64,000 nucleotides of DNA from contig PKUK01000007.1 in assembly GCA_002869535.1 (NCBI GenBank), positions 1 through 64,000 on the forward strand, in the 5' to 3' direction. The translations under genes were made by a program, and so were the position numbers. Source of the DNA: Arcobacter sp. (GTDB lineage: Bacteria; Campylobacterota; Campylobacteria; Campylobacterales; Arcobacteraceae). Below are positions 25,242 through 35,699 of the stretch, in pieces. The notes below the pieces were generated by a model. The model was not told where the DNA came from. It saw only the letters and a program-made list of their open reading frames with translations, and made no database searches. Each line of letters begins with the position of its first letter. The stretch's first letter is position 1.

Positions 25242-26117
25242 TTATTTATCAAATCTTGTTCTATATGAACACTTTTGGCAAAGTTCTTCAATTACCTCGC
25301 CATTTTTAAAACCATCTTTTATATCTATTACTCTTTTTGATTTCAAAATATTTTCCAATCCATCTTCAAATACATTGCCTAAGTTTATGCAAGCATCTTT
25401 GTCCAAACAACAAGGAACAACATCACCATTAGCTAATATTCCAAAGTGAGAATCTAAACCATAACAAAAACCTTTGTTTGATACAAACTCATTTTCTAAG
25501 CTTGGCCATTCAAAATAATCATCAAAATTAAAAAATATTTTTCTTGCAACTCTTATATTTTTAGGTTTTGCCACATAAAATTGGTCAATATCTAAACTTA
25601 TATCAAAATACTCAAAGGCTTTTTTAAAAACCTCACGATTAAACTCTTTTGCGCTTTTTGCATCATCAAAATTCCAAACTCTAAGATTTATGAAAAAATC
25701 AACTTCTTTTTCTAAAGCATATTTACAAAAGTCAAAAATAGGAGTTAAATACTCATCTAAACTATTTTTATGACTATTTCCATTGTATGAATTTACAGAA
25801 AAATTTATTTGTCTAATTGCATCATTTGTTAAAGTTTCATATTGTTCTTCTTTTAGGTTATATCCTGTGGTTGTAAGATTTACTTTAAGGGCATATTTTT
25901 TACTAATATCTAAATAATCATTTAAATTTGAAAGTACTAGTGGATCCCCTACTACATGATATGCTAGCTCTTTTGTAACATTTACTAACTCTTTATTTAG
26001 TAAGTCAAACTTATCTAAAGGCATTGTAACATTTGGTAGGGTTTTTGGAGGACAAAATGAACATTTTAGATTACAAATATTTGTTATTTCTACGTGAACT
26101 TTCTTAAACTTTTTGAT
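25242..26117 (-). CDS. Radical SAM protein (SPASM-like C-terminus), start codon reads ATC
   Basis: A radical SAM enzyme of 291 residues whose catalytic cluster motif CNLKCSFC lies upstream of the first ATG (26024). Extending the frame gives KKFKKVHVEITNICNLKC. A stop at 26121-26123 bounds it, and the only codon positioned after the ribosome binding site (AAGG at 26124-26127, six-base gap) is ATC at 26115-26117. So either AUC is used or an ATG has been changed. The protein continues with YHVVGDPLVL, INLRVWNF, and a C-terminal cysteine set (GFCYGLDSHFGILANGDVVPCCLD, ending ELCQKCSY as separate segments) like SPASM domains. Specific substrate unknown. Confidence 0.82.
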   Translation of the reverse strand: MKKFKKVHVEITNICNLKCSFCPPKTLPNVTMPLDKFDLLNKELVNVTKELAYHVVGDPLVLSNLNDYLDISKKYALKVNLTTTGYNLKEEQYETLTNDAIRQINFSVNSYNGNSHKNSLDEYLTPIFDFCKYALEKEVDFFINLRVWNFDDAKSAKEFNREVFKKAFEYFDISLDIDQFYVAKPKNIRVARKIFFNFDDYFEWPSLENEFVSNKGFCYGLDSHFGILANGDVVPCCLDKDACINLGNVFEDGLENILKSKRVIDIKDGFKNGEVIEELCQKCSYRTRFDK

Positions 26118-26207
26118 ACTTTACCTTTTCTTGATAGTTAAAATTGAGATATTATACACTATTTGATATAATCACTCTTTTAAAATATAAAACTAAAAGG
26201 AATTGTT

Positions 26208-27515
26208 ATCAAAACATTCAACACTATGAACCTTTGTGCACAAATACAAAAAGCTCTTGAAGAAGAAGGATATGAAAATCCAACTGATATTCAAGAAAAA
26301 GCAATACCTGTTTTACTTAAAAACAGTGATGTAATTGCAACTGCACAAAGTGGTACAGGAAAAACTGCTGCCTTTGTACTTCCTATTTTACAAAAACTTT
26401 TTGAGACAAAAGATGCAGACCCTAGTAAAAAAAGAGTTTTAAGAAGTCTGATTTTAGTTCCAACAAGAGAATTAGCAAAACAAATAGAAAAAAGTATCTC
26501 ATATTATGGAAGACATTTAGATATTAAACAAACTATTGTTGTGGGAGGATTAAGTCATAAAGAACAGATAAGAAAAATAGAGTCTGGGATTGATGTACTT
26601 GTTGCAACACCTGGAAGACTAATTGACCATATAAATACAAAATCTGTAGACTTGTCAAGTATAAACAATCTAGTTCTTGATGAAGCAGATACTATGCTTG
26701 AAATGGGATTTTTAAAAGAGATTGAACTAATATTCTCTAACTGTGCAAAAACAAGACAAATATCTATGTTCTCTGCAACTATAAACCAAAACATAAAAAA
26801 ACTTGCAAAAGAGTTTTTACATAAACCTGTAGTAATAGAAGTTTCATCTCAACGTTCAAGCGTAGATATAATTGACCAACAAATATATTTAATGGATGAA
26901 GATAAAAAAGTAGAATTTTTATCATATTTAATTGGCTCAGAGAATTGGGAACAAGTGCTAGTATTTGTAAATACAAAAGCAAAAGCCGATGAAATAACTG
27001 AACAATTTAATCTAGATGGATTAAAGACTGCTTGTATTCATGGAGATATAAAACAGCCAGTTCGTGCAAGAGCTCTTGAAGGATTTAAAACTAAAACATT
27101 AAGAGTTCTAGTTGCTACAGATATTGCAGCACGTTGTATTGATATAGAGCTACTTCCAAATGTTGTAAACTTTGAACTACCAGAAACAGTAGTTGATTAT
27201 ACACACAGAATAGGAAGAACAGGAAGAGCAGGAAACCCAGGCGTTGCTACAACACTTTTATGTGTAAAAGAGTACAAACAGATGGCTGAAATCGAAAAAG
27301 AGCTAATCATAAATATACCAAGACTTACCCACGATGAATATGAACTAACAGAAAAACAACCTAGAGTTGCAAGGTTTAAAGCTAAACCTCTTAGTCAGAA
27401 GAAAGGTTTAAGAGATAAATTTAAAAAGCCTAAAGATAAGGCTCAACTGCCAAAAAAAGCAGCAAAAAAGAAAAAAACAACAAAAAGAGATACTAATAGA
27501 AGCTTCGGGAGATAA
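26208..27515 (+). CDS. DEAD-box RNA helicase, start codon reads ATC
   Basis: An ATP-dependent RNA helicase of 435 residues, cytoplasmic, acting in RNA unwinding during ribosome assembly or decay. Motifs seen are the Q-motif GYENPTDIQ, Walker A AQSGTGKT, PTRELAKQ, TPGRL, DEAD, SAT and HRIGRTGRAG, then a Lys-rich tail of about 60 residues. The conserved Phe that lies 17 residues before the Q-motif Gly is in KTFNTMNL, upstream of or abutting the first ATG at 26226. The ribosome binding site AAAAGGA (195-201 of this kb) is six bases before an in-frame ATC at 26208 but 24 before the ATG. I therefore place the start at the ATC, with 26226 as alternative. Confidence 0.9.
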   Translation: MKTFNTMNLCAQIQKALEEEGYENPTDIQEKAIPVLLKNSDVIATAQSGTGKTAAFVLPILQKLFETKDADPSKKRVLRSLILVPTRELAKQIEKSISYYGRHLDIKQTIVVGGLSHKEQIRKIESGIDVLVATPGRLIDHINTKSVDLSSINNLVLDEADTMLEMGFLKEIELIFSNCAKTRQISMFSATINQNIKKLAKEFLHKPVVIEVSSQRSSVDIIDQQIYLMDEDKKVEFLSYLIGSENWEQVLVFVNTKAKADEITEQFNLDGLKTACIHGDIKQPVRARALEGFKTKTLRVLVATDIAARCIDIELLPNVVNFELPETVVDYTHRIGRTGRAGNPGVATTLLCVKEYKQMAEIEKELIINIPRLTHDEYELTEKQPRVARFKAKPLSQKKGLRDKFKKPKDKAQLPKKAAKKKKTTKRDTNRSFGR

Positions 27516-34967: not shown

Positions 34968-35699
34968 ATGTCAACTAACAAATCTTTTACAAAAGGTTTA
35001 CACGTTTACAAGACAATAGTAAATCATGGTAAACCTATCTTAGCAAAACAGTTATGTGAAAAATTAAACATAGAAAAAAGCACCATGTCAAGACTTCTAA
35101 AAACTCTCTATGAAGAAGGCTTTATAACATATTTAGAAAAATCAAATGAAATCATAGCTACAGATATAAATAGCTCTACAAACAATAAAACAAGAATAGA
35201 ACTTATGGTAAAAAAAACAAAAGCTTTACTAGAATAGATCTACTCCATCACAAATGAGTGCTCATATTTAGGTATCTTTGATAATTACAAGATTTTATAT
35301 CTAAATCAATTTGATAACTCAGATAGGAAAATAAAAACAAGAAATAAAATAGGACTACAAGCTCCTCTACACACCAACGCCTTAGGAAAATCCATCCTAG
35401 CTTTTGGAAACTATGATTTACAAAAAATAAAACTAAACTCATACACACATAACACCATCACAAATATTGCAAGTCTAGAAAACATCTTAAATGATGTGAG
35501 AGAAAAAGGTTACTCAATAGATGACAAAGAGTATCAAGATGGGATGAGATGTGTTGCTGTTCCCCTATTCAATCATCAAAATATACTTATAGGTGCAGTT
35601 GGAATATCTGGCACAAAAGATAGATTGACTCTTGAAAAGTCCCATGAGTCTGGGGAGATGCTTTTGGATATTGTTAATAAGTATTCTATTGTTTTGTGA
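34968..35699 (+). pseudogene. IclR-family transcriptional regulator, interrupted by one in-frame TAG
   Basis: The first 89 codons encode an IclR-type winged helix (SFTKGLHVYKTIVNHGKPILAKQL as two parts, then TMSRLLKTLYEEGFI). TAG at 35235-35237 stops the frame, which then stays open for 153 codons in the same register to TGA at 35697-35699 and encodes the effector domain: LGIFDNYKILYLNQ, APLHTNALGKSILAF (the typical IclR pocket motif), DGMRCVAVPLFN and GAVGISGTKDRL. Total 243 residues fits the family. A single substitution (for example GAG to TAG) explains it. Without readthrough only the DNA-binding part would be made. Confidence 0.88.

Follow-up and report, generated by a model that had tools for sequence, protein, structure and literature searches.

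Two neighbouring, divergently oriented genes in the 64,000-nucleotide stretch of Arcobacter sp. DNA analysed here (the window) carry ATC where a start codon is expected, at 26208-26210 on the plus strand in a DEAD-box RNA helicase gene and at 26115-26117 on the minus strand in a radical SAM gene. The question raised by this locus is whether AUC serves as a start codon in both genes, or whether the genes have lost their starts or been misread. The original prediction left three options standing, namely rare AUC initiation, two start-loss mutations and two base-call errors, and called for a comparison with relatives. That comparison was performed and finds ATA, ATC or ATT at the corresponding position.

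ATC codons at the start positions of the two genes

The DEAD-box gene (26208..27515, plus strand, 435 codons from the ATC) was identified by matches to Pfam and NCBIfam profiles. Both Pfam domains of its product, DEAD (2.5e-47) and Helicase_C (1.2e-29), are over the Pfam cut-offs, and the best NCBIfam model is RhlE (PRK10590), for which the score is 443 bits and the cut-off 743. Because this score is under the curated cut-off, the protein is named RhlE-like only. On the plus strand, the Shine-Dalgarno site AAAAGGA (26195-26201) is followed by six bases and then by ATC AAA ACA TTC from position 26208. Further upstream is a promoter-like sequence, TTGAGA-17-TATAAT with TG before the -10 element (26144..26172, plus strand), which has 11 of 12 consensus matches and is identical in both congeners; it rests on the consensus match only, and a transcript starting from it would have a leader of approximately 28 nt. 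A search for a structured RNA leader gave no Rfam match.

In the open reading frame listing, the sole possible start of the DEAD-box gene is the ATG at 26226..26228 (plus strand), the first canonical codon of the frame. Starting there would lose the IKTF segment that precedes the Q motif, at the start of the helicase domain, and this ATG is replaced by ATA in both congeners, where the start is also ATC and the Shine-Dalgarno site is the same. The claim that the gene needs an upstream start therefore held. Paralogous DEAD-box genes in the same genomes have ATG starts, and the corresponding genes of other Campylobacterales families begin with ATG-TCA-TTT.

The second gene (25242..26117, minus strand, 291 codons plus stop from the ATC) encodes a radical SAM/SPASM protein with Pfam matches to SPASM (4.4e-13) and Radical_SAM (7.9e-10), both over the Pfam cut-offs, and has orthologues of 85-86% identity in the congeners. 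Read on the minus strand, the Shine-Dalgarno site AAAAGG (26129-26124) is followed by an in-frame TAA (26123-26121), AGT, and ATC AAA AAG TTT from 26117 downward. The only start offered by the open reading frame listing is the ATG at 26022..26024 (minus strand), again the first canonical codon of the frame, which lies downstream of the CxxxCxxC iron-sulphur cluster motif, read here as CNLKCSFC, and would delete it; the need for an upstream start to include this motif, as originally argued, was thus confirmed. The start codon of this gene is ATC in the studied genome, ATA in one congener (G002) and ATT in the other (G001).

In both genes an in-frame stop is found shortly upstream of the ATC, a Shine-Dalgarno site is placed 6-8 bases before it, and no ATG, GTG or TTG occurs in frame between the ATC and the upstream stop. 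The original description of the two sites, with ATC at both starts, AAAAGGA six bases from the ATC at 26208 and AAA as the codon following each ATC, was correct.

Start codons across the Arcobacteraceae

In a family sample of 104 genomes, the DEAD-box start could be read in 78 (13 genera) and the radical SAM start in 73. Every one of the 78 DEAD-box loci has AUA, AUC or AUU (hereafter AUH) at the same place (ATC 36, ATA 23, ATT 19), none has a canonical start, and in 54 of them no ATG, GTG or TTG is found from the upstream stop to codon 12. The radical SAM starts are more varied, with ATA in 37, ATT in 15, ATC in 3, ATG in 14, GTG and TTG in one each, and two unread, so that AUH accounts for 55 of 71 readable starts. 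The 16 canonical starts, 14 of them ATG, belong to other, mostly early-branching genera (g6, g7, g8, g11 and g12), apart from the lone TTG (G064), which falls within an AUH clade. The register is uncertain for two of the three ATC starts of the radical SAM gene, both in genus g20, and one of these has an in-frame ATG nine codons upstream.

A Shine-Dalgarno 4-mer is present at -14..-4 in all 78 DEAD-box loci and, among the 53 strictly aligned radical SAM loci with AUH on which the recurrence and Shine-Dalgarno counts are based, in 52, with almost constant spacing. The first two positions of the start codon are A and T without exception in both genes, and the third is A, C or T, never G. Invariant A and T with a free third base is what pairing of a CAU initiator tRNA at the first two bases predicts. 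The recurrence of codon, spacing and Shine-Dalgarno site in 78/78 DEAD-box and 53 radical SAM loci shows that ATC at both sites is more than chance. Two criteria for a near-cognate AUN start are met, a codon other than AUG, GUG or UUG at the only possible start position and evolutionary conservation (78/78 and 55/71, respectively).

On a tree built from the N-terminal parts of both proteins, which are short segments giving moderate support, the DEAD-box codon has undergone 15 or more changes among ATA, ATC and ATT and none to a canonical codon, and the radical SAM start has switched between the AUH and canonical classes at least three times. The presence of ATG or GTG in early-branching genera and of AUH in others shows an evolutionary switch in the radical SAM gene. 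We considered the absence of G at the third base as proof of selection against AUG and dropped this argument, since, with G at a mere 4% of four-fold sites, 15 changes would all miss G with a probability of about 0.54, and the pattern is not significant alone.

The two genes are adjacent and divergent here, as originally noted, but they are separated in most other genera, so AUH starts are not specific to the divergent pair and a tie between start codon and gene arrangement was rejected. Taken across the family, AUA, AUC and AUU very likely serve a small number of Arcobacteraceae genes as stable start codons, initiation itself being inferred from sequence. The option of rare AUC initiation was accordingly supported in substance, with "rare" amended to a conserved family trait involving several genes.

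Outside the family, the DEAD-box start is also ATC in one genome of another Campylobacterales family (f14; L197 / L039). It is possible that the AUH start of this gene reaches past Arcobacteraceae, or that it was acquired there by transfer.

Further AUH-start genes and known near-cognate starts

To find other such genes, we scanned about one third of the studied genome (approximately 864 kb of 2.68 Mb, comprising the window, C5:1-400000 and C9:1-400000; 821 putative genes) for cases in which an AUH codon preceded by a Shine-Dalgarno site is the best start, and checked the candidates in relatives. Conserved AUH starts were found in 6 of the 821: the DEAD-box and radical SAM genes and four others which, from reading their translations and not from a family search, we take to be uvrB, tatD, ftsK and an N-acetylmuramoyl-alanine amidase gene. 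The uvrB start is ATA in the genus and AUH in 10 of the 23 family genomes where it could be read, the rest having mainly ATG; tatD has AUH in 22 of 24 family genomes, and in the other families of Campylobacterales that were read it has ATG or TTG. In all three congeners ftsK begins with ATA and the amidase gene with ATT. Extrapolation from six genes in about 864 kb gives a rough estimate of some 20 AUH-start genes per genome; the figure is rough as the scan is blind to genes that have an in-frame canonical codon farther upstream and relies on mechanical gene calling. Genes taken, on the same basis, to be cbpA, yqiA and pyrH were rejected as further members, because their ATT is private to the studied genome and the congeners have ATG.

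The uvrB genes differ in their upstream regions. Those with AUH have a Shine-Dalgarno site, and those with ATG in other genera (L342, L346, L350, L353) often have a TATAAT-like box only about 6 nt before the start and no Shine-Dalgarno site, as if leaderless.

The closest known case is the AUU start of infC in E. coli and other bacteria, where a housekeeping gene likewise has a near-cognate AUN start that is conserved and preceded by a Shine-Dalgarno site. The Arcobacteraceae cases concern different genes and include AUA and AUC besides AUU, and autocontrol, as in infC, is not shown for them. A second chromosomal example in E. coli is the AUU start of pcnB (Binns and Masters 2002, cited in PMC9410913 and PMC5601948), a gene that is likewise RNA-related and whose near-cognate start is taken to hold expression down; infC and pcnB are the only E. 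coli AUU starts cited in PMC9410913, whereas here six genes were found in about a third of one genome and two were followed across a family. In Vibrio fischeri, ainS was proposed from strain comparison to start at a conserved ATT; its ribosome-binding site is conserved too, whereas no canonical start is (PMC5601948). That proposal concerns one gene in three strains, as against several genes and a family here. GUG and UUG, also non-AUG starts read by the initiator tRNA, are ordinary and mismatch the first base, in contrast to AUH, which mismatches the third; a study of start-codon selection (PMC5622118) deals with AUG, GUG and UUG. No earlier report of AUH starts in Arcobacter was found in the open-access literature searched, which does not prove absence, subscription papers being mostly outside the search. 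The start codons described here are of this known kind, but in other genes, with all three AUH codons and family-wide.

Gene callers restricted to ATG, GTG and TTG would truncate or drop such proteins, at the cost of the cluster motif of the radical SAM protein, the N-terminal end of the helicase before the Q motif and, for FtsK and UvrB, 37-47 N-terminal residues or more. Arcobacteraceae also offer a natural system for testing the effects of AUH codons, and IF3 discrimination as a means of regulation beyond infC.

Initiation mechanism and rival explanations

No reading other than AUH initiation fits the frames, and both genes are very likely translated from AUC, an inference from sequence without peptide, profiling or reporter data. 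On this inference the strong Shine-Dalgarno site puts AUC in the P site, where the ordinary CAU initiator tRNA pairs with A and U and the mismatch at the third base is tolerated, the protein presumably starting with formyl-Met. A strong, fixed Shine-Dalgarno site is the expected support for a weak codon. The initiation rate, and with it expression, is inferred to be low and perhaps adjustable, because IF3 of E. coli discriminates against codons of this type. In that case IF3 or the condition of the 30S subunit would set the output, on the model of infC and pcnB, a step that is plausible and no more than proposed.

The initiation machinery offers no obvious cause. Three initiator-like tRNA sequences were read, each with a CAU anticodon, a GGG/CCC anticodon stem and a C1-A72 mismatch; an initiator tRNA with an altered anticodon was rejected, as all initiator-like genes among the tRNA loci read (30 of 46) have CAU. 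IF3 is single-copy, with no obvious family-specific change in the alignment with other Campylobacterales, and given this normal alignment a broken or family-specific IF3 was likewise rejected. Its gene, infC, starts with TTG (UUG) throughout the family sample, in a conserved AATTTGAGT-like context, which excluded it as a sister AUH gene. The AUH habit is therefore not explained by any visible change in the machinery, as far as tRNA and IF3 sequences can tell.

The position and conservation of the AUH starts, the lack of alternatives and their spread are shown by sequence, which cannot decide between low expression, coupling to IF3 and mere tolerance. Tolerance and IF3-linked regulation, two readings within genuine AUH initiation, stand at similar odds, and we lean slightly against each. 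Under tolerance, AUH starts would be near-neutral, some feature of initiation making AUH nearly as good as AUG without any regulation. In its favour, the third base of the radical SAM start (ATA 37, ATT 15, ATC 3) tracks the strong A/T bias of four-fold sites in the genome and looks like mutational drift, and the AUH genes are functionally mixed. Against it, AUG is still kept elsewhere, ATG making up about 77% of canonical starts preceded by a Shine-Dalgarno site (484/625, sampled stretches); ATC reaches 46% in the DEAD-box gene against 5% C at four-fold sites, which speaks for some constraint on that codon; and neither the initiator tRNA nor IF3 was seen to be altered.

Under the second reading, the AUH genes would form a regulon, translated more strongly when there is little IF3 per 30S subunit, e.g. 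when ribosome assembly stalls, and less when IF3 is plentiful. This is suggested by analogy with infC and pcnB (PMC9410913), and one of the genes encodes an RNA helicase, an enzyme class with a role in ribosome assembly. There is no direct evidence for it, though, the remaining members have no common link to the ribosome, infC itself uses UUG here and not AUU, and IF3 shows no obvious family-specific change. A bolder version, in which some 20 AUH genes per genome act as a translational regulon reporting the IF3/30S ratio or 30S quality, is possible.

The two remaining options of the original prediction both failed against the homologous ATA, ATC and ATT codons of the congeners and the family. 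Two recent start losses, with genes decaying or giving shorter products, could be argued from the downstream ATGs at 26226 and 26024. This is nearly ruled out, since the frames are intact, with 85-91% identity in the congeners, the first of these ATGs is ATA there, the second would remove the radical SAM cluster motif, and conserved AUH starts are found across the rest of the family. Base-call errors at both ATC sites might be suspected in an assembly with private changes in conserved genes (ATT in cbpA, yqiA and pyrH against ATG in congeners; in-frame stops in selB and an IclR-type gene where congeners have Glu), but they are virtually excluded by AUH at the same place in independently sequenced genomes of the congeners and many further genera, and a general G-to-T excess from damage or a mutator, tested in the 64-kb window, was not found.

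The private changes deserve mention in their own right. The ATT starts of the cbpA-, yqiA- and pyrH-like genes (G000:C9:230476-231381, minus strand; C9:87518-88075, plus strand; C5:344109-344828, plus strand) are either private AUU starts or errors, because pyrH is normally essential. A gene at 34969-35699 (plus strand) of the window, which we take to encode an IclR-like regulator from reading the sequence and not from a family search, has an in-frame TAG at 35235-35237 where both congeners have GAG, by nonsense mutation or sequencing error. Similarly, a gene which we take from its translation to be selB (L300, G000:C5:288006-289736, minus strand) has an in-frame TAA (DDTN*EKERGIT) in place of GAA in both congeners. 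Five further conserved-looking genes with an in-frame stop (G000:C5:89224-89739, C9:43136-44188, C9:36065-36439 and C9:94315-94557, all on the minus strand, and C5:271963-272874 on the plus strand), among them a chemotaxis receptor (LNAAV*AATAGEAG), may be pseudogenes or assembly errors.
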